Positions 780 to 23,831 of a DNA stretch of 23,831 bases are shown one piece after another. The translations under genes and the position numbers were made by a program. Location: positions 1 to 23,831 of IMG/VR virus record IMGVR_UViG_3300009506_002913. One strand, given 5' to 3'. The stretch's first letter is position 1. Each line of letters begins with the position of its first letter. The DNA comes from a virus. The notes below the pieces were generated by a model, which saw only the letters and a program-made list of their open reading frames with translations, was not told the origin of the DNA and did no database searches.

Positions 780-2197
780 ACTTCAGTAATCCCCTCTTTC
801 GTTCCGGGCTTTTTCAAAATATCCGCTTCCGTTGTTTCTCCTTCCTTCTTTTCAAAAGTAATTGATACATCTTCATCTCTATTTGCAGGTTTATTCAACA
901 AATAAAGGTACTGTCTAAGATACTCAAACGCACCACTATGACCCTTCAAATCACTCAAGGTGAAAAAAGTATTAGAAATATCAGATAAATCCACCTTTGG
1001 CACACCATACTCTTCTACAGACTCAATTTTATTAGAAATGTCCGGAATTTGTAATTGTCCATTTTCATATTTCCATTTGATATTTAATGGAACCCATATA
1101 ATGTTTTTTGTAATAGGATCTGAAAATGTAGCATTTTTATTTTCCAACGCTTCAATCACGGCCTGTAATCTTAAATTAAGTTGTTCTTTGGTTATATTAT
1201 TAACCGGAGGAAAACTAAAAGCTTTCAAAAATTCTTCTACAGTCTGCTCAGAATCAGAAATTGTAGTTTTTGTAACAATTATTTCATTAGCAACTCTTGA
1301 ATTGAATTTGTCGGTGTAAAAAATCCTATCAACAGGATCTATGCTTTCTACAAAAATATCAAAAAATATATCTGGTAACCCTCCAATTAAACTTAAAACT
1401 TGTTTATAAGTATCTTTAACTCCAAATAAAAATATAGAATCATCAATAATTTTCATTATATCTGAAGCTTTGTAGTCTGTTGGCATCACAATTTCATTAT
1501 TCACCAAAAAATTAGATATTGGCACATTAACAGAATTTGGAGAAAAAAACCTCAAACTATCATTAAGTAAAGACATTACCCAAGCGTGCCTTCTGTCGCC
1601 AAATATTTTAGCAGAATTATTGTACATATCCAATTCACTACTTTCTGGATGCACTTCTGTAATGTATGCTTTTTCTTTGTGCAATAAAATAAAATTATAA
1701 TCAATTTCTGATATTTTTTGTGGAACTTTTGTTGCCACAATTTTATATTGATATATTCTATCTTTCTTGATATGTGGATCATGAAATATCAAAATATCAT
1801 CTTCATTTATCACAAAATCACCAATTTGTCTAATATAATCAACATAGTAGCTTCTTTCCTTTTCCAAATCCTTAACAGATAAAAACAAAACTCTATTAAA
1901 TTCTGAATCTTGAGTTCCGCCTGACAATTTTGAAAAAATATTCTTTTTGAAAATTTCATAATGAGTAGAATCAAGATATTTTTTCCAAACTAAAAGACAA
2001 CCTAAAAATTCTCCACTAACAACATATTCAACAACAAAAAGCAATTTTGGAATATTAGAGGTATAAAAATCAGGAGAACTTTCAAATCCAACCCGTTGAA
2101 ACTCACTTAAAGTAGGTTGCTTTATTGATTGCGCAGTTGCAGATTTTATGTTAACCGATGACACCAAAAAATCTGCTAAAACACCCCTGTCTACCAT
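776..2197 (-). CDS. Unknown structural protein downstream of FN3 protein
   Basis: A 473-residue protein starting MVDRGVLADFLVSSVNIK. I chose the ATG at 2197, which lies one base after the TAA of the upstream FN3 gene; an in-frame TTG lies 12 bases further upstream at 2209, inside that gene. An AAGG sequence about 12 bases before the ATG is a weak ribosome site. The N-terminal 150 residues contain alternating beta-type stretches ending in a segment like RIYQYKIVATKV, which resembles the F strand of an Ig/FN3-like domain. The C-terminal 40 residues are charged and probably disordered. It overlaps the next gene by four bases. No family recognised; a tail or baseplate role is inferred from context. 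Confidence 0.8.
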   Translation of the reverse strand: MVDRGVLADFLVSSVNIKSATAQSIKQPTLSEFQRVGFESSPDFYTSNIPKLLFVVEYVVSGEFLGCLLVWKKYLDSTHYEIFKKNIFSKLSGGTQDSEFNRVLFLSVKDLEKERSYYVDYIRQIGDFVINEDDILIFHDPHIKKDRIYQYKIVATKVPQKISEIDYNFILLHKEKAYITEVHPESSELDMYNNSAKIFGDRRHAWVMSLLNDSLRFFSPNSVNVPISNFLVNNEIVMPTDYKASDIMKIIDDSIFLFGVKDTYKQVLSLIGGLPDIFFDIFVESIDPVDRIFYTDKFNSRVANEIIVTKTTISDSEQTVEEFLKAFSFPPVNNITKEQLNLRLQAVIEALENKNATFSDPITKNIIWVPLNIKWKYENGQLQIPDISNKIESVEEYGVPKVDLSDISNTFFTLSDLKGHSGAFEYLRQYLYLLNKPANRDEDVSITFEKKEGETTEADILKKPGTKEGITEV

Positions 2198-6724: not shown

Positions 6725-9700
6725 TTATTCCTCGTTATCCCTATCTTTTTTTGCCACCATTTGTTTTACCCATTCATTTCTGAAATTGATGCCAGAATTT
6801 GAATCGCAAGTATCTATTTTGTCATCGCCAGAAAGTTTCGAAACTTGCAAAAAACTATCAAAAAAAGTCTTAGTATTTGAATTATCTCCGGTTGTAACAA
6901 ATTCACTTGGTATGTCTACTCCATCTTTGACCTCCTCAAGTTGAATTCCATAAACAGCAAATGGATTACCGGGCCCGCCAGCATAAGATGAAGTAAGGTC
7001 GGCAGCGGCAGCACCTACACGAATTCCAGACAATTTAGAAGCATCACCACCCAAAGATGCTTCGTCTACAGTAAATGCCATATAACACCTATACCAATCA
7101 TCTCCAGCATCTTGTATTCCAAACACGGTAGTTGTTGACTCTAAATATGTGCTACCCAGCGTTCCAGATACTATACAATAATATGAGCCCCAACTGTCAG
7201 GAGCTAATTGAAAAAACACAAAATCTTGATCAACTGATTTAAAATAACCAGAAAGAACATATCTTTTACCTGCCTGAATTGTCACAAATCCATCATAAAC
7301 GGCAGATTCAAAATAATGACTTTCATCATCATCTGTATCAAAAACAAGTATTGCATCTTCTCCACCAAAGGGATCTGTAGCTACACTAGATGCAGACAAA
7401 AAAGTATAACTCCAAGTTGCAGCCTCAAAATTATTGGAATTAAGTGCCAAATTTTCAACAGATCGTTTTCTAAAAATCTGAGAATCATTAGATATATTAT
7501 CAAATTTAGAAACATTTGTGTTATTGATCTGTCCATCAATTTTAGTGATTTCCAACCTATCGGGCACGGGAACAGAACTACTCATAATAAGAATGCTAAC
7601 AGAATCCATACTGATAGCGCTAATTTCACCATTAAAAACATTCATACTTGAACCAGTAATAGCAGCACTGGCTGTAATTTCCATTTCAGGAATCGTTTTG
7701 GGAGTTCTAAATATAGGATATTTAAAAGACAATTTGGGTCGCTCTAATGCATGACTTTCAACCACCTGTTCTCCGCCAATAAAGCTCACCCTGACTGGCA
7801 ATAATTGTTTTATTGCATCACTAATTTTCTTATCAAACCATCTAAAAAGTTTGAAAAATGAAGTAAAATTCAAACTATCACCAAGTCTTTCAAAATAAAC
7901 TCTTCTGTAAGATTCCAGATCCGTATATTCATCTCTGTACTTATTTATTGGTTTTCCTATTGAATCATTCAATTTATCAAAAGTAGAAAAGATTTTTGCT
8001 ATATCTTCATTTAAAGAATCAATTAAATTAAACTCAATAGATACTTCATCGTTATCAAAACAAGCATCTTTCGATGTTAATTTACTTTTATTGTAAACAC
8101 GTATTTTATTTTGTGTATATCTTAAGTCAACATCGGCATTCAAATAATCATAAGATCTCAAAAATTTCTTAAAAGGATTATAACTTGCATCAAAATTCCA
8201 ACCAATAGCATCGTTTCCATTTTGAGATAGATCTGTTATATTTTCTATTGTTCCCGCAGAAGATGCTGTTACAAAGTTATTTAATGCCCAATGGCCAACC
8301 AACGGGTTGGGTAATTCCAATATATCTTTAATGCCCACACTTTCAAAATGCAGGGCATGATCATAAATTTCACTAGCAGACAAGGCACGATTCCAATATC
8401 TAACTTCACTAAACCACCCTTCCGTTTCATGATTAAAAAGGGAACCAGAATTTGCGCCTATAATGAAATCAAAATCACTTCCAGTAAACGCCCCACTCAC
8501 AACACCGGACCCTTCAAATGAAGAACTAATAGAAAACTTTTCTACATTAACTTCATCAGTATCTGGTCTAGTAACATAAATAAATGGAATTTTATCATTC
8601 AAGCCAGCAGCTATGTGTGTAAATTCTCCATCAAAAATATCTATACTGGCAGAAAAAGATTCGCCATCACTGGCTGTAAGAATCAATTCTGTATCTGTGC
8701 TATTCCATAATAAAGTAACAGATTCCGAATCTGCAGAATCTACAAATTGCCATAAACTACCAGAAGTAAAATTAGAACTTGCAGAAAATCTAACATATGA
8801 TTCGACAGTAAATGAGTTGTTCGGAGAAGCAACAAGAGAAGTATTTCTAACAAAAGCATCTTTAAAACTTCCCGTAATACCAAGAGCAGCAACAACTTTA
8901 TCTCTATGTATTCTAGAATCCTGTATAGAAGAACCAGCGGAATAACCAAATTCTTTAATTCTGATATTTTCTTTATTTATTCCCAACACATTCAAAAAAG
9001 CATCCAAATTTGACCTTTTTCCTTTGGTTTTATACAAATACGGAAGATTGTTTAATATCCTTCTCCAAAATTGGTCCTTTACTTCAACAAGAGGAACTTC
9101 AAGACTTCCAGAATTCAAAACTCCACTACCAAAAAAGAAAGACAAGGGATCGGTATCACCAAAATGTTCTGTAACTTTCCATCCAAAATAATCTTTCAAA
9201 AAAGATAAAAATAAATCAGGAGACTCATCAACTCCGTCATAGTTGGTGACTCTAAGATTGTCAAATTGATCTATATAAAGTTTTATCTCATCAAAATATC
9301 TGCCCATCGCCAAACAAAATGATTGCAACAAACCTTGTGAAAAATTATCTTCTTCTAAGACACCCCCAGGAATCATATTGAGAATAAACTTGTTATTTTC
9401 AGCATCATAAAAAGATGCCGAAAAATCTATACTTGATGTAAATGATACAACATCAGAATGAAAACTATATAAAATAGGATCCCCTGGATCGTCAACCATT
9501 ACCGATCCAGACGTTCTACTGTCCGAAGAATAATTTAAATATCTTCCATGTAACCCGCTCTTAGAATAATCCACAATAACTTGATCAATAGAACCTGTGC
9601 CTGTGACACTTTCATTAAATTTATAATGAAGTTTAAGAAAATCTTCTGCATCTATAGGTCTGTTATAATTGTCAGAAATCCAATTTGCACTGGCGGTATG

Positions 9701-10540
9701 AAAATATCTGAATTCATTCATCGACCCAGAAAACGAAGTATATGTAGAAAACGAACTACTACCAATCAAAAATGGAATAGTTGCAGCAAATTCCATAGAC
9801 CCAATATCGGCAGTTGGAACACCAGTTTTAACCAATTCCCCATTAACATATATTGACGCAGTTTGATTACAAAAAGTAGATGCAATATTTACAAAAGAAC
9901 CGGTAGGTATCGGATATACAATTCTGGCTACACTAGAACCCGAAACAACAAGAAAAGATGATGTTACATCAACACCAGTATTGCTATGCAGTCCTATTGA
10001 AAATCCAGTATAAACAGGACCAGCAGATTCGCTAATATAATAAACAACAGAAGAAGTAAACGACGGAGAAACTTCTGCTACATTCAACCAAACAGAAATA
10101 CCAAAAGAAGAACTTCCCATAATCAATTTTCTGTCTGTATCGCTAGCTGAAATATATTGGTCACTTCCACTTATGAAATCTACATAACCGACATACCGTG
10201 GCCATTGATCAAAAATATATTCATCATATTGCGTACCAGAAAGAAAATGTGCATCTTTTTCTTCGGCATTCCCGTTAAATGGATAATCATTCAAAACTTT
10301 ATTTTTTGCTATTCCAAACTTCGCCACAGCAGAATCAAAAAAAACATGATTAGAAAAATCTGAAAAATCTACCTTAAGTTCTGTTTTGAGCGCATCTTCG
10401 GCGATTCTCTCAATTTTACCTTTTTCTGAAATAAATTCCGACAAATCATCAAAAGAATATTTTGAAGTAGTAGAAAGGTTGGCATCCTTTTTGAGGTACT
10501 CTGGATATGTTAATTTTAGACCTATTTTCCTGTCGGCCAT
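6725..10540 (-). CDS. Large tail protein with two LamG-like and one CBM-like domain
   Basis: A 1271-residue virion protein, the largest in the window. In order: residues about 115-290, a LamG/concanavalin-A-like domain (YVDFISGSDQYI ... SFGISVWLNV ... GSMNEFRYF); about 390-530, a stretch resembling P2 gpI-type baseplate proteins (LPYLYKTKGKRSNLDAFL ... IKEFGYS); about 565-770, a second LamG-like domain (SFTVESYVRF ... FSEVRYWNRALSASEI); about 1028-1215, a carbohydrate-binding-like jelly-roll (NLALNSNNFEAATWSY ... DDWYRCYMAF ... YGIQLEE). It lies two genes after gp6, where T4-type phages place large wedge proteins, so it may serve as wedge scaffold plus adhesin. Start ATG is one base after the upstream stop with an AAGG site. 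Domain calls are by pattern. Confidence 0.85.
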   Translation of the reverse strand: MADRKIGLKLTYPEYLKKDANLSTTSKYSFDDLSEFISEKGKIERIAEDALKTELKVDFSDFSNHVFFDSAVAKFGIAKNKVLNDYPFNGNAEEKDAHFLSGTQYDEYIFDQWPRYVGYVDFISGSDQYISASDTDRKLIMGSSSFGISVWLNVAEVSPSFTSSVVYYISESAGPVYTGFSIGLHSNTGVDVTSSFLVVSGSSVARIVYPIPTGSFVNIASTFCNQTASIYVNGELVKTGVPTADIGSMEFAATIPFLIGSSSFSTYTSFSGSMNEFRYFHTASANWISDNYNRPIDAEDFLKLHYKFNESVTGTGSIDQVIVDYSKSGLHGRYLNYSSDSRTSGSVMVDDPGDPILYSFHSDVVSFTSSIDFSASFYDAENNKFILNMIPGGVLEEDNFSQGLLQSFCLAMGRYFDEIKLYIDQFDNLRVTNYDGVDESPDLFLSFLKDYFGWKVTEHFGDTDPLSFFFGSGVLNSGSLEVPLVEVKDQFWRRILNNLPYLYKTKGKRSNLDAFLNVLGINKENIRIKEFGYSAGSSIQDSRIHRDKVVAALGITGSFKDAFVRNTSLVASPNNSFTVESYVRFSASSNFTSGSLWQFVDSADSESVTLLWNSTDTELILTASDGESFSASIDIFDGEFTHIAAGLNDKIPFIYVTRPDTDEVNVEKFSISSSFEGSGVVSGAFTGSDFDFIIGANSGSLFNHETEGWFSEVRYWNRALSASEIYDHALHFESVGIKDILELPNPLVGHWALNNFVTASSAGTIENITDLSQNGNDAIGWNFDASYNPFKKFLRSYDYLNADVDLRYTQNKIRVYNKSKLTSKDACFDNDEVSIEFNLIDSLNEDIAKIFSTFDKLNDSIGKPINKYRDEYTDLESYRRVYFERLGDSLNFTSFFKLFRWFDKKISDAIKQLLPVRVSFIGGEQVVESHALERPKLSFKYPIFRTPKTIPEMEITASAAITGSSMNVFNGEISAISMDSVSILIMSSSVPVPDRLEITKIDGQINNTNVSKFDNISNDSQIFRKRSVENLALNSNNFEAATWSYTFLSASSVATDPFGGEDAILVFDTDDDESHYFESAVYDGFVTIQAGKRYVLSGYFKSVDQDFVFFQLAPDSWGSYYCIVSGTLGSTYLESTTTVFGIQDAGDDWYRCYMAFTVDEASLGGDASKLSGIRVGAAAADLTSSYAGGPGNPFAVYGIQLEEVKDGVDIPSEFVTTGDNSNTKTFFDSFLQVSKLSGDDKIDTCDSNSGINFRNEWVKQMVAKKDRDNEE

Positions 10541-15781: not shown

Positions 15782-16504
15782 TCAAATTTCTCCTGCTAAA
15801 TATTTCTTCTTAAATAAACTGTACTTCTTTTTGAATTTCCCCAAATTTGTAACAACTTGTTTGGTATTTAAACCAGAAATTTCTCTAATATAAAAATAAA
15901 TAGCCTTTTTGTTATAAATTGGAACAAGATCGGGATTTTCAAACAACAAAAGAATGGCCTCTAATACTTTAACTTCTTGATCTTTGTGAAACTTATCTCG
16001 CCATTTTGACATTTCTTCTTTTAAGTTTTCGATAAACTCTTTGTTGAAAATAACATCCTCCAAAGAGAAAACAACAGCATCATTGTTGTCCTTCTCTAAA
16101 GACTTAATTGCAGTTTTGTCAAAAGAAACATTCAACTTATTTTTTCTTTTTCTTTTTTTAACCTCTTGAATAAACCAATGCTTACCCATTACATTAAAAT
16201 AGGAAAATGCCTTTTTCCCACGAGACTTATCAAACTTGTGAATATTTTCAACTAAAAAAGAAATACAATCATCCTTTAAGACATCTATTTCTCCAAGAGT
16301 ATGAAATTTATAAACAAATATCAAATTCTCAACCAACTTTTCAAAAGCCGGTTGGATTCTAGATACAAATATTTTTTGTAGAATTTCGGGAGATGGATTT
16401 TCTTTAGATAATTCTAACTGATATTCAACTATTGCTAAATCGGTTTCTTCTCCAAAATAAAACTTATTCTTTTCTTTTTTCTTTCCTTCCTTTGCTGCCG
16501 GCAT
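15782..16504 (-). CDS. gp55: Late-transcription sigma factor, gp55-like
   Basis: A 240-residue protein related to T4 gp55, the sigma subunit that directs host RNA polymerase to late promoters. Residues about 45-120 form a sigma region 2-like helix bundle, with the best box at 90-117: KFDKSRGKKAFSYFNVMGKH followed by WFIQEVKK, matching the FD.....AF.Y.......F...VK pattern of gp55 proteins. A basic stretch KKRKRKNK follows. T4 gp55 has about 185 residues; this one carries an extra helical C-terminus (about 175-240). I chose the ATG at 16504 (MPAAKEGKKK), which has a GGA site 9 bases upstream; an in-frame start at 16540 has little support. It overlaps the upstream membrane-protein gene by about 40 bases. 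Confidence 0.8.
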   Translation of the reverse strand: MPAAKEGKKKEKNKFYFGEETDLAIVEYQLELSKENPSPEILQKIFVSRIQPAFEKLVENLIFVYKFHTLGEIDVLKDDCISFLVENIHKFDKSRGKKAFSYFNVMGKHWFIQEVKKRKRKNKLNVSFDKTAIKSLEKDNNDAVVFSLEDVIFNKEFIENLKEEMSKWRDKFHKDQEVKVLEAILLLFENPDLVPIYNKKAIYFYIREISGLNTKQVVTNLGKFKKKYSLFKKKYLAGEI

Positions 16505-16766
16505 TTCTGTATTCCAATAATATATCGTGCATAATACCAATCAATCGATATATAGATTGAATGTCTGGATCGTCTGATACAAGTTGCCGTTGCATTAATT
16601 TATCAAATGTCGATATTACGCCGTCAATATCTTCTAGGGTGTCCTCAAAAAAGTTATATAAATTTTCTCTCTCAATCGTAACAATCAGTGCTCTTCTGAG
16701 AACAACAATTAATATAACTAATTCTACAACACAAAATAAAGAAAGTAAAATACAAAGCAAAGTCAT
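16464..16766 (-). CDS. Small single-helix membrane protein
   Basis: A 100-residue protein with one N-terminal transmembrane helix at residues about 2-23 (LLCILLSLFCVVELVILIVV), followed at once by Arg-Arg and then a charged helical domain (EDTLEDIDGVISTFDKLMQR) and a very basic C-terminus (GSKGRKEKRKE). The charge pattern suggests the C-terminal domain is cytoplasmic. The ATG at 16766 overlaps the stop of the FmdB-like gene (ATGA) and has an AAGGTG site. It overlaps the start of the sigma gene. It could be a holin or lysis-control protein, but it has only one helix and the wrong apparent topology for a spanin; function unknown. Confidence 0.75.
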   Translation of the reverse strand: MTLLCILLSLFCVVELVILIVVLRRALIVTIERENLYNFFEDTLEDIDGVISTFDKLMQRQLVSDDPDIQSIYRLIGIMHDILLEYRNAGSKGRKEKRKE

Positions 16767-16972
16767 TTCGCACCTTTGGGTTTTTTTGAATATCCAGTAC
16801 TTGACCAACCGCCACCTTTAAGAATGAAAGTTCCACCAGAACTAATTGGTACCTTCTCCATCTCTGTCTGTAAACAAAGTTTACATTTTGGGGGAGGAAA
16901 GTCAGAATCAAATTTTTCTATCCTTTCCGTCTTATTTCCACAATTTGTACATACATATTCACGTATTGGCAT
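16763..16972 (-). CDS. FmdB-type zinc ribbon protein
   Basis: A 69-residue protein beginning MPIREYVCTNCGNK, the characteristic start of the FmdB/CxxC_CxxC_SSSS family (usual form MPIYEYRCxxCG). A zinc ribbon is formed by Cys8, Cys11, Cys30 and Cys33 (PPPKCKLC), followed by ISSGGTFILKGGGW, which is also typical of the family. These small proteins are often called putative regulators but no activity is firmly established. The ATG at 16972 overlaps the transglycosylase TGA (TGATG); TTG and GTG codons just upstream are less likely. The two genes around it code for a membrane protein and a membrane-anchored cell-wall enzyme. Confidence 0.88.
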   Translation of the reverse strand: MPIREYVCTNCGNKTERIEKFDSDFPPPKCKLCLQTEMEKVPISSGGTFILKGGGWSSTGYSKKPKGAK

Positions 16973-17784
16973 CACCAAGTTATTCCTTTTTCTTCAAACT
17001 GTCTCTTCCATTCATCAACTTTTTCAATATAATCGGCAGTTTCAACCGGATATGCTTTCCAAATTCCAGCTTCAACATTAGATACACAATTTATTCCACA
17101 ATTATAAGAGGCCACTGCTAATCTTTCATTATCTTCAAAAGCATGAAGCATTCTTGCCAAATACAATGTTCCAAAACGAACATTGTGATCCACCCTTTTC
17201 CAATTATAATATTTCCACCCAATCCAAGATTTAATATCATTTGCGGTTGCTGGCATCACTTGCAACAATCCTTGTGCTCCGGCAGCAGAAACAACATTAT
17301 TTTTAAAATTTGATTCTTGACGCATAATAGCCAAAACCAAAGATGTTTTAACATCATATTCGTCAGCACGATCAACTACAGCAGCGGAAATTTCTGTCAA
17401 TTCATCTACGGGCAAAATTCCACTAGAAACGCTTTTAATTGCATCTCTAACCTTTTTTATTCTTGCCCAACGCATTTCTTGACTATCAAGGCTTGCCTCT
17501 AAAACCTGAACTTGTGATATCAATTTATTTTGTTTAATTTGTACCGTTTCCAATTTGTTCGCACTTTTTACAATTGCAAAATTGTGATATTCATCTTCGG
17601 AATGCATTTCTCCGGTTAGGTGTTCTAGATTTTCGTTAAGAAGAATCTCTTTCCTGTCTAGTTCATAAATTCTTATAGCAATTCCAAAAAAAGATAAAAC
17701 AAACAAAAATCCAACAAGACCACAAAAAAATATGGTTCCTTCTACTTGTTTTTGTATTTTTTTAGAACACTTGCAAGATTCCAT
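16972..17784 (-). CDS. Membrane-anchored lytic transglycosylase (SLT domain)
   Basis: A 270-residue peptidoglycan lytic transglycosylase, which cuts the MurNAc-GlcNAc bond. Residues 1-14 are basic and Cys-containing, 17-38 form one strong transmembrane helix, about 45-115 are a charged coiled-coil-like stalk, and 130-262 form the SLT domain. Its motifs are visible: IMRQESNF with the presumed catalytic Glu157, SAAGAQGLLQVMPATA at 166-181, and the late AVASYNCG at 223-230. The basic N-terminus predicts a cytoplasmic end and a periplasmic catalytic domain. The start ATG has a GGGGA site and overlaps the upstream gene by 23 bases. It could act in lysis or be packaged for entry. Confidence 0.93.
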   Translation of the reverse strand: MESCKCSKKIQKQVEGTIFFCGLVGFLFVLSFFGIAIRIYELDRKEILLNENLEHLTGEMHSEDEYHNFAIVKSANKLETVQIKQNKLISQVQVLEASLDSQEMRWARIKKVRDAIKSVSSGILPVDELTEISAAVVDRADEYDVKTSLVLAIMRQESNFKNNVVSAAGAQGLLQVMPATANDIKSWIGWKYYNWKRVDHNVRFGTLYLARMLHAFEDNERLAVASYNCGINCVSNVEAGIWKAYPVETADYIEKVDEWKRQFEEKGITW

Positions 17785-18241: not shown

Positions 18242-18700
18242 TCACTTTGAAAATTTATCAGCAACAGATTGAGCTGCCCAAGCAGAAGGTTTAGCTACAA
18301 CCTTGAATCCCTGACCGACCACCATACCAACAAGTTCTTGCAAATAAGCATTTGACTTGAACTTCTTATTCTTATTTACATCAATATGAATTACAAGTTC
18401 AGCATTTTTAGGAAGTAAAGGATAAACCTTAAAAGCAGTTTCAATAGATCTCCAAACTTCCATCGTAAGCTTTTCTCTCAAGCTAGATGGTCGACGATCC
18501 TTCTCTTTAGAAAGAAATATTTTTCCACCCTTGCCCTTTTTGTATAAAATAATGCAAGTAGTATAAACAATTTTTTTAATTTTTCTATGTACTTGAGAAT
18601 CTGAACCTACATAAACCTCGTATTCAAAGTCTCCACTGATTTGTTTGACAATATCTTCCAGAGATACAACATTGCCACGGCTGTCTTTGAATGGTTCCAT
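18242..18700 (-). CDS. YkuK-type RNase H-like protein (DUF458)
   Basis: A 152-residue protein matching the YkuK/DUF458 family, predicted to have an RNase H-like fold. Visible family boxes: YEVYVGSDSQVHR at 27-39 with Asp34, SLREKLTMEVWRSIE at 73-87 with Glu81, LVIHIDVNKNKKFKSNAYL at 102-120 with Asp107, and a C-terminal GFKVVAKPSAWAAQSVADKF with Asp148. The acidic residues at 34, 81, 107 and 148 sit where a metal-binding D-E-D-D set would be expected, so a nuclease role on RNA or RNA:DNA hybrids is plausible but unproven. The length is near the bacterial family's. A GAG site lies seven bases before the ATG, in a 38-base gap. Confidence 0.85.
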   Translation of the reverse strand: MEPFKDSRGNVVSLEDIVKQISGDFEYEVYVGSDSQVHRKIKKIVYTTCIILYKKGKGGKIFLSKEKDRRPSSLREKLTMEVWRSIETAFKVYPLLPKNAELVIHIDVNKNKKFKSNAYLQELVGMVVGQGFKVVAKPSAWAAQSVADKFSK

Positions 18701-18738: not shown

Positions 18739-19050
18739 TTAAGGGTTGTTCAATTCTTTTAGGTCTTTGTGAGAAATCTTCTCACTTTTGAGATATTGCC
18801 AAAAGGCACTAAAAGATGGAAAATCTTCCTTTGTTAATTTTAAACTTTTAAGCTCTTTAATTTCGCTTCCGATACCTCTAAGATATTCTTCGGTATCTTT
18901 CCTTATTTTGCCATCTTTTATTTGCTTTATCTCATAATGAATTTCTTGAATTAATTCATTTATCTTAAGGCCAATTTGTCTATCTTGTTCACGTCGATTC
19001 TTGTAAATCTTCTTTGCAAAATTCCTAAAAAGTCTTCTCTTATTTAACAT
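18739..19050 (-). CDS. Small basic helical protein, unknown
   Basis: A 103-residue, Lys/Arg-rich protein beginning MLNKRRLFRNFAKKIYKNRR. Almost all of it is predicted helical; residues 25-75 show heptad-like spacing (INELIQEIHYEIKQIKDGK, then LRGIGSEIKELKSLKL), suggesting a coiled coil. The ATG lies three bases after the upstream stop with a GAG only three bases away, so coupling is likely. It belongs to a run of short basic genes (20208 to 18739). No family recognised; nucleic-acid or membrane-surface binding would fit the charge but is not shown. Confidence 0.68.
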   Translation of the reverse strand: MLNKRRLFRNFAKKIYKNRREQDRQIGLKINELIQEIHYEIKQIKDGKIRKDTEEYLRGIGSEIKELKSLKLTKEDFPSFSAFWQYLKSEKISHKDLKELNNP

Positions 19051-19053
19051 TTC

Positions 19054-19269
19054 TCACAACAATCCTTGTAAATATTTAACGTGTTTTTCAAGTCCCTTTG
19101 TATCCCATCTTTTGACATCGCCGACTCTTTTATGACTCAATATTTCACTTTTATATCTATCCCACTTTTTAATTTTCATATTAGTTTTCATTATAGCACG
19201 ACTAATTCTTCTATCTCTAGAAAGTCCACTACTTGTTCTCTTATCTCTTTTTGACTTTTTCTTACCCAT
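19054..19269 (-). CDS. Very small basic protein, unknown
   Basis: A 71-residue, highly basic protein beginning MGKKKSKRDKRTSSGLSRDR. The first 25 residues are likely disordered; the rest (about 26-71) is helical (IMKTNMKIKKWDRYKSEIL, then LEKHVKYLQGLL). It has one of the clearest ribosome sites in the window (AAGGAG, seven bases before the ATG), and its start overlaps the end of the lipoprotein-like gene by eight bases. The strong site suggests it is made in quantity. No family recognised. Confidence 0.72.
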   Translation of the reverse strand: MGKKKSKRDKRTSSGLSRDRRISRAIMKTNMKIKKWDRYKSEILSHKRVGDVKRWDTKGLEKHVKYLQGLL

Positions 19270-19891
19270 TACACAACTCCTTGCAAAGTAATTGACAAGA
19301 TTTCCAATTTACCTTCCTAATAAGAGAGTTTTTAAAACATTCTTTTTTCTGTTTTGAATCTTTTATTTCTTTACACTCAAGAGTCCAATATCCTTTCTTT
19401 TCGTGTTTCTCATCTATTTTTTTCTTAATATGTCTGTGAAAGAAATGTATCAATTCATGGCCTAAAACCGAAACAGCTATACATTTTTCCCACTTTACTT
19501 TCAAGGTAGAATAAGAAAATCCCTTAATAATTTTAACATCATGTAAACCATAACAAAAATCATGACCAGGACAACTAAATTTATTCTTCACAAAAACAAT
19601 ATCATGAGAAAATTTATCATGTTCCAAAAAATTTTCAAGCTTTTTTCTGTTATATGCTTTGTAATCCATTTGAGACATTTCGCCCATAACAACATCTGTA
19701 ATAATTTCTACTTGTTCTTGTGAATAACAAAGGTTCACATCTTCGCAATGTATATTGAAACCATGTTTTGTATTATACACAAATTTTGATGTTGGAGCGC
19801 AGTTAGTAATCGCAATTATTGTAATCAAACCTACTCCATATTGAACCATATTCCTCTTCAAATGAAACTGTTTTTTTCTCTTGTTTGTCAT
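19262..19891 (-). CDS. Cysteine-rich lipoprotein-like HExxH metalloprotease candidate
   Basis: A 209-residue protein. Residues 1-14 are basic and 16-30 hydrophobic, ending in AITNC with Cys31, an imperfect lipobox (Asn at -1 is unusual). The mature part has Cys at 49, 55, 107, 113, 137, 173, 185, 199, 203 and 207, suggesting disulfides in the periplasm. HELIHFFHRH at 145-154 contains the zincin HExxH motif (His145, Glu146, His149), preceded by hydrophobic AVSVLG as in true zincins. The third zinc ligand is not obvious. The ATG at 19891 has an AGGGA site eight bases away; a longer form to 19933 is less likely. It could be a lysis-associated or surface-modifying protease, or an inactive relative. 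Confidence 0.75.
   Translation of the reverse strand: MTNKRKKQFHLKRNMVQYGVGLITIIAITNCAPTSKFVYNTKHGFNIHCEDVNLCYSQEQVEIITDVVMGEMSQMDYKAYNRKKLENFLEHDKFSHDIVFVKNKFSCPGHDFCYGLHDVKIIKGFSYSTLKVKWEKCIAVSVLGHELIHFFHRHIKKKIDEKHEKKGYWTLECKEIKDSKQKKECFKNSLIRKVNWKSCQLLCKELCNG
19277..19282 (-). promoter_or_regulatory. Strong ribosome binding site of 71-residue basic gene
   Basis: AAGGAG on the minus strand, seven bases before the ATG at 19269, inside the 3' end of the lipoprotein-like gene. Most genes in the window have weaker sites. Confidence 0.7.
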
Positions 19892-20102
19892 TGTAATATC
19901 CCTTTCTGTCAATCTTACAACAACCGCAACCACAAGTCAAGTTCCATTTCTTCAAAATGCCTGGATTTTTAAATTCTCTGGTTCTTACAAATTTGGTGTG
20001 TGATCCTATTTCTGAACTACCAGAACACCACACTTTTATAATTTTTAATCTTTTTTGAATAACTTTTTCGGTTTGAAATCTTCGCCAATCTCTAGTTCTC
20101 AT
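19803..20102 (-). CDS. Small CxCxxC protein with DWRRFQ N-terminus
   Basis: A 99-residue basic protein beginning MRTRDWRRFQTEKVIQKRLK, with a cysteine knot-like segment WNLTCGCGCCKIDRKG near residues 53-68. From memory, small proteins with an N-terminal WRR...KRL segment and a late C-x-C-xx-C box are seen in bacteria and phages, with unknown function; zinc binding is likely. Its last 29 codons overlap the start of the lipoprotein-like gene in another frame (89 bases), which is long for this genome. Either the overlap is real or the functional part ends near the Cys box and the C-terminus is little constrained. Ribosome site weak (AGAG, about 10 bases). Confidence 0.65.
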   Translation of the reverse strand: MRTRDWRRFQTEKVIQKRLKIIKVWCSGSSEIGSHTKFVRTREFKNPGILKKWNLTCGCGCCKIDRKGYYNDKQEKKTVSFEEEYGSIWSRFDYNNCDY

Positions 20103-20641: not shown

Positions 20642-21364
20642 TTATTTATTTCTCTTTGACAGAATTTGACTTAAAGTTAATGTATCAAAATCTTTCAATC
20701 CCAAATATTCCAAAACATTATGTGTCTTGGGTCCAAAAATTCCATCTATTTTACCTGTTTCAAAATAACCAAGTCTTATTAATTGACTTTGAATAAACAT
20801 TTTTCTCAACTTTTCTGGGTCTTCATCAGGATTCCAACAACCAACATCTAGAATGGTTGCCTTCGCAGCTTCTTTATAAGACAATCTATTATAAACTTCT
20901 TCCCATTCTTCAGGGATCCAATCAAAATGCCATGATTCGTTGGCTGTGATATCAGGAATAGATATTATTGGTTTGAAACCAAGAGGTTTAGCTAAAACCC
21001 AAAAAATCTCTAACCAATCTTCTTTTTTGGAATCTTTAAATCCCAAATCAGAAACTGCAATATCGACAGCCATACCAGATTGATGAAAGCTAGAGCCCGG
21101 CTTGGCGACATATGCAGTTTTCTTTCCTGCCTCGTAATTATCACGAGCTAAGGATTGCATTTCCCATGTTCTAAGAAGATCAATGATATGCATATGACCT
21201 TTGGTTAATTCTACAATTTTATTTAGTTTTTCAAGTGCCTCGAACATTCCCGGATGAATATAGGCACATTGATTAAAAGATTCAACAGTTAATCTTTTAC
21301 CCCTTTTTTTATATATCGTTTTCAAACCACTCGCTGAAATTAAAACAACTCTTTTGGGTATCAT
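20642..21364 (-). CDS. Endolysin: M15 peptidase plus peptidoglycan-binding domain
   Basis: A 240-residue cell-wall peptidase. The M15 (D-Ala-D-Ala carboxypeptidase/L-Ala-D-Glu endopeptidase type) core has the zinc set SSFHQSGMAVDIAV with His94 and Asp101, and NESWHFDW with Glu143 and His146. A C-terminal peptidoglycan-binding (PG_binding_1-like) domain follows at about 185-225 (IQSQLIRLGYFETGKIDGIF, then GPKTHNVLEYLGL). No signal peptide, so release would need a holin, which I do not see in the window. I chose the ATG at 21364, 12 bases after GGAG; an ATG at 21382 adds six residues but has no ribosome site. It is the first gene after the largest non-coding gap. Confidence 0.92.
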   Translation of the reverse strand: MIPKRVVLISASGLKTIYKKRGKRLTVESFNQCAYIHPGMFEALEKLNKIVELTKGHMHIIDLLRTWEMQSLARDNYEAGKKTAYVAKPGSSFHQSGMAVDIAVSDLGFKDSKKEDWLEIFWVLAKPLGFKPIISIPDITANESWHFDWIPEEWEEVYNRLSYKEAAKATILDVGCWNPDEDPEKLRKMFIQSQLIRLGYFETGKIDGIFGPKTHNVLEYLGLKDFDTLTLSQILSKRNK

Positions 21365-21376
21365 GTAAAATCCAAA

Positions 21377-21400
21377 CTCCATAAATATAATTATTTACAA
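21377..21400 (-). promoter_or_regulatory. AT-rich element upstream of endolysin
   Basis: On the minus strand this reads TTGTAAAT, six bases, then ATTTATGGAG just before the endolysin start. The element closely resembles the one at 14157-14180 before gp25. TGTAAATA inside it differs by one base from the T4 late-promoter core TATAAATA. Candidate late promoter or leader; unproven. Confidence 0.35.
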
Positions 21401-21473: not shown

Positions 21474-21887
21474 TCAATCACCTTTGATCAATTTGAAACT
21501 ATCAGAATCTTCGTGAAATGTCGAAAACTCAAATAATTCAGAATTTTGAAGTCCAAGCATCATATGAATTCGACCTGGTGGTATATAAAAATTTTCACCA
21601 GGTTCTAAAATTACTTTATCTAAAGTGTCTTCAATTTCTTGATAAGATGGAGTGGTTTCATAAGTATGTAGAACAGAAGCTACAAGATCAAGAGAATCAG
21701 AATAAAAAACCTTTATTTTTCCGGAATGAAGGTAAAAAACTTCATCTTTATTTTTGTGATAATGTAAGCTGCACTTACGATCTTTGGCTATGTAAAGAAG
21801 TTTACCACAATATAATTCTTTGTTGACAATCCACCTTTCGTATCCCCAACCTTTGGGTACAAATTTCATCATTGGTTGTTCAATCAC
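21474..21887 (-). CDS. Cupin domain protein (sugar isomerase/epimerase-like)
   Basis: A 137-residue single-domain cupin. Motif 1 is LHYHKNKDEVFYLHSGKIKV at 41-60 with metal ligands His42, His44 and Glu49; motif 2 is GENFYIPPGRIHMM at 97-110 with His108. The start of the domain (KGWGYERWIVN ... LLYIAK) resembles the C-terminal cupin of type II mannose-6-phosphate isomerase/GDP-mannose pyrophosphorylase proteins and related sugar cupins. With its neighbours it probably acts in nucleotide-sugar or polysaccharide metabolism, though the reaction is not determined. The GTG start overlaps the methyltransferase stop (GTGA) and has AGGA seven bases upstream; the ATGs at codons 6 and 7 are alternatives. 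Confidence 0.85.
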   Translation of the reverse strand: MIEQPMMKFVPKGWGYERWIVNKELYCGKLLYIAKDRKCSLHYHKNKDEVFYLHSGKIKVFYSDSLDLVASVLHTYETTPSYQEIEDTLDKVILEPGENFYIPPGRIHMMLGLQNSELFEFSTFHEDSDSFKLIKGD

Positions 21888-22537
21888 TTTTCAATCCTAA
21901 ACCAAAAACTTGGATTATAGCACCAATCTCTGTGTGCCGGTTGTTTTATTTCAAAATGTTCCATAACGTCCGGTATCCAAAAATATGTTTCAATTTTATT
22001 TTCAGTAATATATTTTTTGAGCACAATAGATTCAGGATTTAAATTATCAACATTGTATCTAATATCGTGTGCCATAATCCAACAACCATTTTTTAAAAGT
22101 GGCAATAACTCTTCAGCATATCTACTAACAAATGGTTCGTCATGATTACAATCGATAAATAAAAAATCTAATTCACAAATTTTATCTTTATCTATTACTT
22201 TAAATAAATCTCCTTGAACAATTTTTACAAAATCATCTAAATTATTATTTTTGATATAACTTGTAGAGGAATTAGCAAGACTTTCGTGTACTTCGTACGA
22301 AATAACATAATCTTTTTCAACTAAAGATTCAATCATCGCTTCCGCTATCAACCTTGTAGAACATCCAGTATCAGTTCCCCACTCCATGGCTTTAGATGGT
22401 TTCACAACATTTAGCAAAAAGTTATACATAAATGCTTGTTCGATTTCATCCATCTGCCTTCTCGGCAGAGGACATTTTTGTAAAAGGAATTCTTCGGTAA
22501 GATTATTATTTATAAAATCAAAATTAGAAAAATACAT
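21884..22537 (-). CDS. Class I SAM-dependent methyltransferase
   Basis: A 217-residue protein with the Rossmann methyltransferase order: motif I MEWGTDTGCSTRLIAEAM at 51-68, acidic residue Glu82 ending the second strand (VISYEVHE), QGDLF at 108-112, LDFLFIDCNHDEP at 123-135 and CWIMAHDIR at 152-160. The IDxxH-type stretch with the late AHD resembles the Methyltransf_24/O-methyltransferase group. Placement between a sugar kinase and a cupin suggests methylation of a sugar or glycan intermediate, but the substrate cannot be read from the sequence. The ATG follows the kinase TAG by two bases and has no clear ribosome site. Confidence 0.85.
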   Translation of the reverse strand: MYFSNFDFINNNLTEEFLLQKCPLPRRQMDEIEQAFMYNFLLNVVKPSKAMEWGTDTGCSTRLIAEAMIESLVEKDYVISYEVHESLANSSTSYIKNNNLDDFVKIVQGDLFKVIDKDKICELDFLFIDCNHDEPFVSRYAEELLPLLKNGCWIMAHDIRYNVDNLNPESIVLKKYITENKIETYFWIPDVMEHFEIKQPAHRDWCYNPSFWFRIEK

Positions 22538-22539
22538 AT

Positions 22540-23376
22540 CTATAAATAGATTTCAACTGTACCAAACATCGTTACAGATTTTGCTGCAACGGTATTGGCA
22601 AACTGTACTGCCCTTCCTAGTAAAAATGATCTCATATATTCAACAACAAGTCCAGCGATAAATACATCTCCGGCTCCAGTTACATCTAAACATTCTACCT
22701 TTTCTGCTGGATAATGTAATTGTTTTCCGTTAGAACGTCTCAAAAAGGCACCATAATCTCCGTCTGTTATTACAACTTCGTGTTTTGTGGTTCCTTCTGT
22801 TTTTTTCCATTCATCCCAGTTCATTTTAATAATGCAATTTTCAACTTTATTCCAAATAGAAATATCTGAATTTTTTGTGTCAACAAAAACAGGACCGTCA
22901 AAATTAATCAATTTTTGAATAACCTTTTCGTTGATTGTTCCTTTTTTGTAGTCACTTACAACAATACAATCATAATCTTTAAAATTTGCATAATTAAGAA
23001 GAAATTGATATTCTTCTATTAAATCATCATCGAACCTTTTAATATTGTCTAATCTTACAATTTGATCGCCAGTCTTTAGATTAAAAATTCTTGTTTTTTT
23101 GATTCCTTCCAAATTTTCTAAGTTACAAGAATAAACACATTTAATTTCTCGTGCTTCTAACATTTTGTTGCATAAAGTAGACATAATACTGGATACATGT
23201 ACGATATCCTTAGAAAGTGATTTAAGATTAGCTGCAACATTCATACACCCGCCAAGCCTAGATTCTTCAGATTCTATATCCAAAACTGGCACTACAGGAT
23301 TTTCTGGAGATCTTCTAGAGATGGTACCAAATACGTAGTGATCTAGTATAGCATCACCAATGACTAGATATTTCAT
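22540..23376 (-). CDS. PfkB-family sugar kinase, HldE/RfaE kinase-domain-like
   Basis: A 278-residue kinase. The N-terminus follows the RfaE/HldE first domain closely: VIGDAILDHYVFGTISRRSP, then VPVLDIESEESRLGG, and CMNVAANL at 44-51. SDYKKGT at 141-147 and the anion-hole/catalytic box DVTGAGDVFIAGL at 231-243 (base Asp237) are PfkB hallmarks. HldE domain 1 phosphorylates D-glycero-D-manno-heptose 7-phosphate at O-1 for LPS core synthesis; full domains are about 310-330 residues, so this one is compact, and no nucleotidyltransferase domain follows. Exact substrate is inferred. The ATG lies in a 35-base gap with GGGA about 11 bases upstream. Confidence 0.87.
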   Translation of the reverse strand: MKYLVIGDAILDHYVFGTISRRSPENPVVPVLDIESEESRLGGCMNVAANLKSLSKDIVHVSSIMSTLCNKMLEAREIKCVYSCNLENLEGIKKTRIFNLKTGDQIVRLDNIKRFDDDLIEEYQFLLNYANFKDYDCIVVSDYKKGTINEKVIQKLINFDGPVFVDTKNSDISIWNKVENCIIKMNWDEWKKTEGTTKHEVVITDGDYGAFLRRSNGKQLHYPAEKVECLDVTGAGDVFIAGLVVEYMRSFLLGRAVQFANTVAAKSVTMFGTVEIYL

Positions 23377-23411
23377 TGTAATTTAATTCCCATACTAATC
23401 AAATCCTCTTT

Positions 23412-23831
23412 TTATTTATTATACTTGCCAGTCATTTGAGGCAAATTAAGCCAATCGTGATTTTCTCTTATATACAAATTTTTCAACCAAACAGTATTTA
23501 AAATAAGTGGATCTAAATACAAATTTTCTGCAAATGCAGCTAAAGCGTTGATGTCTTTGGGAAAACATGACTTTGAAAACCCGAGTTTTCCATCTGGACC
23601 TGGAACTTTGTAATGTGTGTGTCCAATTCTTTTGTCCAATAAAACTAAATCAGTTACTTTTTCAAAATCTAATTTTATTTCTTTGCATATTTCATATATT
23701 TCGTTAAAAAAAATAACTTTTGTTGCCAAAAATGAATTAATAACATATTTTGACATTTCTGCTGCTTCGCTCGTTGTTTCAATTATTTTATTTAAAGACT
23801 TTTCTTTTTGCACATTTTTGATAAAATCAAT
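23412..23831 (-). CDS. UDP-glucose/GDP-mannose dehydrogenase-like, partial (5' end outside window)
   Basis: The frame is open to the right edge (about 139 residues), so the N-terminal NAD-binding domain lies outside. An internal GTG at 23813 is not the real start. Visible is the central dimerisation/catalytic region: AEMSKYVINSFLATKVIFFN, NEIYEIC, DKRIGHTHYKVPGPDGKLGF, then SKSCFPKD with the presumed catalytic Cys. The usual GFGG before this Cys is GFSK here. The protein ends only about 45 residues after the Cys, so the family's C-terminal UDP-binding domain (roughly 100 residues or more) is missing or very short. These enzymes oxidise UDP-glucose to UDP-glucuronate or GDP-mannose likewise; substrate not decidable here. 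Confidence 0.85.
   Translation of the reverse strand: MDFIKNVQKEKSLNKIIETTSEAAEMSKYVINSFLATKVIFFNEIYEICKEIKLDFEKVTDLVLLDKRIGHTHYKVPGPDGKLGFSKSCFPKDINALAAFAENLYLDPLILNTVWLKNLYIRENHDWLNLPQMTGKYNK

Follow-up and report, generated by a model that had tools for sequence, protein, structure and literature searches.

A candidate exported zinc protease encoded beside the endolysin gene of a phage

A minus-strand gene in a virus record of 23,831 bases (the whole of this stretch is called the window) is predicted to encode P0002, a protein that is probably an exported zincin. More tentatively, P0002 can be read as a late, exported, membrane-anchored zinc protease, with a contribution to envelope breakdown at lysis as its most likely use. 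The window phage has T4-like baseplate genes and is therefore probably contractile-tailed. No Rfam matches and no tRNAs were found in the window.

The predicted protein and its N-terminus

The open reading frame was found where the preliminary description had placed it, and the hydrophobic N-terminus ending in a cysteine, the ten further cysteines, and the HELIH motif that it listed are all present. The features of the gene are given below, with the signal peptide, lipidation site, and HELIH residues assigned from the sequence.

19262..19891, minus strand: exported zincin candidate P0002, 209 aa plus stop (ATG at 19891, stop at 19262-19264)
19802..19891, minus strand: predicted signal peptide, residues 1-30, with a basic n-region (KRKKQFHLKR) and then a hydrophobic core
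19799..19801, minus strand: Cys31, predicted lipidation site, in a non-canonical lipobox (ITN-C)
19445..19459, minus strand: HELIH, residues 145-149, with predicted zinc ligands H145 and H149 and predicted catalytic residue E146
19412..19414, minus strand: D160, an Asp three residues ahead of the third His and outside the search pattern
19403..19405, minus strand: H163, predicted third zinc ligand, invariant in alignment A8 but part of the search pattern
19385..19387, minus strand: W169 of the HExxH-x10-D-x2-H-x5-W signature, invariant in alignment A8

Cys31 is preceded by the hydrophobic stretch VQYGVGLITIIAITN. Compared with the lipobox pattern [LVI][ASTVI][GAS]C, the residues at -3 and -2 fit but the Asn at -1 does not, so P0002 does not match the pattern; the counterparts in the related loci L008 (LVS-C) and L020 (LFS-C) conform fully or almost fully to the canonical form. 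Because deviant lipoboxes are known among phage o-spanins (PMC6139136), P0002 may be lipidated despite ITN-C. Phages rarely have lipoprotein genes (PMC6139136); the P0002 N-terminus is the sole credible lipoprotein-type N-terminus within the window, and the zincin is likewise the sole one in the L008 contig. An alternative start is possible at an internal ATG (Met15, 19849) with AAGAGGA upstream, and its use would cost the protein the basic n-region. With 11 cysteines in total, P0002 has a Cys fraction of 5.3%, which is matched by just 1.1% of 1180 distinct ORFs from related loci.

Neighboring genes and syntenic relatives

We searched with the proteins encoded around P0002 and found four relatives, whose wedge proteins show 58-64% identity. 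The common gene order is nucleotide-sugar genes, M15 endolysin, a slot of small genes, a gene of ~100 aa, SLT transglycosylase, sigma factor, and baseplate, and the SLT enzyme was not detected in L022. P0002 occupies the slot, between the following genes of the window.

20642..21382, minus strand: M15/VanY peptidase with a PG_binding_1 domain, a likely endolysin, upstream of the slot (VanY, 6e-7; PHROG endolysin, 1.6e-9)
19803..20102, minus strand: basic, Cys-rich ORF of 99 aa just upstream of the zincin, with a homologue at L022:6483-6722 (1e-4)
18739..19050, minus strand: 103-aa gene that forms the downstream boundary of the slot in all relatives, based on comparison of gene order
16972..17784, minus strand: SLT transglycosylase with an N-terminal transmembrane (TM) segment (TM 18-36), downstream of the slot (SLT, 1.5e-25)

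The lysis-type neighbors named in the preliminary description thus correspond to an M15/VanY peptidase with a peptidoglycan-binding domain, a gene kept in 4/4 relatives, and to a TM-bearing SLT transglycosylase. The 99-aa ORF, which has a weak match to phrog_4499, and the start of the zincin gene overlap by 89 nt in different frames. A T4-type late promoter was not found just upstream of P0002; the promoter sequence TATAAATA occurs once on the minus strand of the window, at 22514, so late expression of P0002 is neither supported nor excluded by it.

Several other genes of the window were characterized. Sugar-nucleotide-type genes adjoin the endolysin (21474-23813, minus strand) and encode a dehydrogenase central domain, a PfkB kinase, a methyltransferase, and a cupin, of which the dehydrogenase, kinase, and cupin genes are conserved in 4/4 relatives. 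Inside the late block, an RNase H-like protein is encoded at 18242-18700 (minus strand; PF04308, 1e-33), and its phage relatives are mainly from Vibrio phages. A 1271-aa protein with Laminin_G_3 (concanavalin-like) matches (6725-10540, minus strand) is kept in the relatives. A 114-aa protein that is conserved in the relatives and has a single TM segment at its N-terminus (16464-16808, minus strand), and whose gene overlaps the sigma-factor gene, could be an i-spanin or similar candidate.

The slot holds a zincin in three of the five syntenic phages and lacks one in the other two (L022 and L024). In L008, the slot protein is P0001, a 158-aa lipoprotein with the motif HEVAH that leans SprT-like; in L020/L021, it is P0003, a lipoprotein and true matrixin metzincin (PF00413, 2.3e-9; HEAGHVLGLNH..LM). 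In L022, the slot holds an HSP20 small heat-shock gene (L022:5994-6434; PF00011, 9e-6). Of the 1180 distinct ORFs from the relatives that are 100 aa or longer, 7 are lipoprotein-like and 16 contain HExxH; only two are both, and these two are the slot proteins of L008 and L020 (p 0.003). Pairwise similarity between P0002 and P0001 is not above that of shuffled sequences. Conservation of the active site had been set beforehand as a check, and P0001, the L008 counterpart, keeps the residues.

Further genes were recorded in the relatives. In L008, a ClpP-like protease gene that is missing in the window lies between two conserved late genes (L008:7608-8261; PF00574, 2.5e-27). The contig of L020 encodes a second lipoprotein protease, with an LIFTS-C signal and a trypsin-like domain (L197:3107-3775, minus strand; PF13365, 1.2e-13). 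In the L020 phage, two overlapping frames make up the baseplate wedge gene (L046:14452-16285, minus strand), through either a sequencing error or a real frameshift.

The active-site motif and a group of exported phage proteins

HELIH occupies residues 145-149 of P0002, with KCIAVSVLG just before it. Shuffling the mature protein yields a bare HExxH in 4.9% of cases; HELIH alone is therefore weak, and the observation needed support from outside. P0002 and P0001 both have an ungapped HExxH-x13-H-x5-W, which in the fetched loci occurs in the slot only. This pattern appears in 0.0025% of P0002 shuffles, a post hoc rate because the pattern was defined after viewing P0002 together with the L008 protein. 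With an Asp at -3 of the third His added, it appears in 0 of 200,000 shuffles. The resulting signature, HExxH-x10-D-x2-H-x5-W, lies at 19385-19467 (0 expected in shuffles), and P0002, which combines it with an exported N-terminus, had itself served as a seed of the pattern, along with P0001.

Across all viral contigs, HExxH-x13-H-x5-W matched 56 stretches, many of which are cytoplasmic proteins or chance frames. The matches include nine exported proteins (L138, L142, L144, L145, L162, L167, L173, L175, and L176), and the H, E, and H of HExxH show no variation across the nine exported members. The Asp at -3, which lay outside the search pattern, is found in 7/10 exported proteins (L008 counted) vs 1/31 non-exported ones (Fisher p 4e-5; p 3e-4 without short frames); it is present in P0002 (D160) and missing from P0001. 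One 245-kb viral contig encodes two adjacent exported HExxH proteins (L144:398-1099 and 1080-1874, plus strand), the second of which has an N-terminal hydrophobic segment and a motif one residue longer (HEIMH-x14-H-x5-W); the pair seems to have arisen by tandem duplication, and the two differ in their anchors.

A profile HMM built without P0001 finds P0001 with 27 bits (E 1.7e-6), and one built without P0002 finds P0002 with 18.6 bits (E 7e-4), where an unrelated HExxH protein (L136) scores 18.0. Using hhalign, the group aligned to P0002 at 34% (E 4e-4) over 35 columns of P0002, to the matrixin P0003 at 1.7%, and to a true SprT-like protein at 11%. Membership of P0002 in the group is thus assigned from the active-site segment of the sequence, and we regard P0002 as a zincin candidate representing an as yet unnamed group of exported phage proteins with HExxH-x10-D-x2-H-x5-W. 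Outside the slot, group members lie among tail genes or are isolated genes on the opposite strand, with no clear proximity to lysis genes.

Database searches and comparison with known families

The best Pfam match to P0002 is SprT-like (PF10263; 14.7 bits, E 0.029), below the curated cut-off of 25.6 bits. Searches of PHROGs, NCBIfam, PDB sequences, and, by TBLASTN, phage records gave no useful match to P0002. A direct search of genome contigs found none, and the sole direct match in viral contigs turned out to be a false positive, a terminase large subunit (L001). The group profile (A10) found none in 296 genomes from the phylum of a Winogradskyella MAG, a search that shows little since it was run without a positive control. 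The preliminary description knew of no phage family with this arrangement; in agreement, the protein is unclaimed by Pfam, PHROG, and NCBIfam, but several unnamed phage relatives do exist.

P0002 resembles SprT-like/Spartan proteins in its HExxH helix and in having a third His and an aromatic residue at a similar distance; however, it is exported, Cys-rich, and below the family cut-off, and its third His is two residues closer (x13-H-x5-W) than in the SprT-like protein encoded by the L020 phage (x15-H-x3-W). The matrixins (PF00413), represented by P0003 and Listeria Mtz (PMC8235301), are exported zinc proteases encoded beside phage lysis genes, as is predicted for P0002, and P0003 shares the slot of P0002. 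P0002, however, lacks HExxHxxGxxH and a Met-turn, and it was rejected as a matrixin: its HELIHFFHRHI is without the Gly and His of the extended motif, which are seen in P0003 only. PhageMetallopep (PF18894) is also a phage HExxH family, with a weak match to 1/9 group members (E 0.0028), but it matches neither P0002 nor P0001. The C-terminal zinc metallopeptidase of VgrG2b, a T6SS effector, is a periplasmic HExxH enzyme whose action perturbs cell shape and causes lysis (PMC6899460); the likeness is by description, and VgrG2b differs in being a delivered effector with an immunity protein and without a lipoprotein anchor. The o-spanins and u-spanins are phage-encoded lipoproteins at lysis, as is proposed for P0002, but they carry no enzyme motif, whereas P0002 is a Cys-rich zincin candidate of ~180 residues.

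Structure models

AlphaFold2 produced an unusable model of P0002 (two sequences; pLDDT 38) and a model of P0001 with moderate confidence (nine sequences; pLDDT 69, pTM 0.67). The P0001 model has three strands, a helix (105-122) carrying HEVAH, a short helix right after H129, and a C-terminal helix; this moderate-confidence model shows the zincin order of elements, with the HExxH helix behind a beta sheet. No PDB structure match to the model reaches E 0.001. Zincins recur among the weak matches, including jannalysin (a minigluzincin), Acel_2062, lugdulysin, ERAP1/2, and MMP-11, with TM-scores mostly of 0.3-0.4, and non-zincins are also among the matches. Phage peptidases and SprT-like proteins are among the viral structure matches, which have E values from about 1e-3 to 1e-1. 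The preliminary description had proposed an exported metalloprotease; synteny, the motif group with H163 and D160, and the zincin-like model of P0001 support an exported, anchored zincin with predicted protease activity.

Discussion

We infer a mechanism in which P0002 would be exported and anchored in the membrane as a lipoprotein-type protein, and its many cysteines would probably pair as disulfides outside the cytoplasm. The zinc ligands would be H145 and H149 in the HELIH helix together with H163 in the segment that follows, and E146 would be the catalytic base. Produced as part of the late set, from a gene next to those of the M15 endolysin and SLT transglycosylase, the protein would most likely cut one or more host envelope proteins; the envelope would thereby be weakened, and peptidoglycan hydrolysis could be completed as full lysis and virion release. 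Predicted export, the position in a late block by two peptidoglycan hydrolases, and the occupation of the slot in a relative by an unrelated zincin that is also exported together point to late envelope proteolysis. There is one precedent in a Gram-positive host: in Listeria, the phage-derived secreted metzincin Mtz, whose prophage copies are often downstream of holin-lysin, sensitizes cells to lysins and lysis by cleaving a partner lipoprotein (PMC8235301). The cell-lysing periplasmic zincin effector described above (PMC6899460) is a further precedent for such proteolysis. Outer-membrane disruption, as suggested in the preliminary description, is plausible from gene position and from the Listeria precedent, but relatives elsewhere are not clearly lysis-linked and two of the five syntenic phages have no slot zincin. 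Both observations count against a lysis role, and we consider a lysis-related function possible though somewhat doubtful.

The main rival to the lysis role, itself rather unlikely, is that the same enzyme serves surface modification or superinfection exclusion by trimming a receptor or surface protein and so blocking adsorption or injection. A zincin that is found in 3/5 syntenic phages, in a slot whose content is exchanged between non-homologous genes, would fit an accessory trait, as would the moron-like opposite-strand genes among group relatives elsewhere. Some exclusion factors are lipoproteins (T5 Llp, phi80 Cor), although these are not proteases. However, a place in the late block beside the endolysin is late for exclusion; we know of no zincin among phage exclusion proteins, and a literature search for zincin-type examples found nothing relevant.

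It is unlikely that HELIH is fortuitous and P0002 is instead some ordinary or degenerate exported protein, for example a Cys-rich envelope protein or an o-spanin-like lipoprotein. The shuffle rate of bare HExxH, the lack of any zincin similar to P0002 over its full length, the pLDDT of its model, and the potential i-spanin at 16464-16808 are consistent with such a protein, but in two relatives the slot also encodes an exported protein with HExxH, and the H-E-H-D-H-W signature did not arise in shuffles. P0002 also exceeds typical o-spanins in size.

A role in processing or quality control of a late exported phage protein, in which P0002 would activate the TM-anchored SLT enzyme, for example, or a different phage protein sent to the envelope, seems quite improbable. 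The N-terminal TM anchor of the SLT enzyme could need release, and Mtz does cleave a partner lipoprotein (PMC8235301), but L024 keeps the SLT gene yet has no slot zincin.

A cytoplasmic SprT-like protease of the DNA-protein crosslink repair type, with a hydrophobic N-terminus that is no signal, would explain the weak SprT-like matches of P0002, P0001, and 3/9 group members, but we reject it as very improbable because the N-terminus is typical of a signal (basic, hydrophobic, Cys) on a Cys-rich protein and because the L020 phage has a separate bona fide SprT-like gene (L050:919-1419), which matches the group profile more poorly.

Returning to the proposed late envelope protease, the finding offers HExxH-x10-D-x2-H-x5-W as a searchable signature for an unnamed phage protein group. 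A survey of 677 phages found no spanin in 91 of them and raised the question of how the outer membrane is breached in such cases (PMC6139136), so outer-membrane opening by phages without recognizable spanins is a question already posed in the literature. In some tailed phages, a late lipoprotein zincin might cleave outer-membrane or tether proteins and so replace or assist spanins, with zincins from unrelated families recruited to a single fixed position next to the endolysin; we consider this broader reading unlikely as it stands. The occurrence, in one slot by the endolysin, of zincins that are unrelated yet alike in being exported and anchored suggests that envelope proteolysis itself, and not a particular protein, is selected there. 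Exported proteases of differing build at one place thus hint at a late protein-cutting step, possibly in the opening of the host cell.
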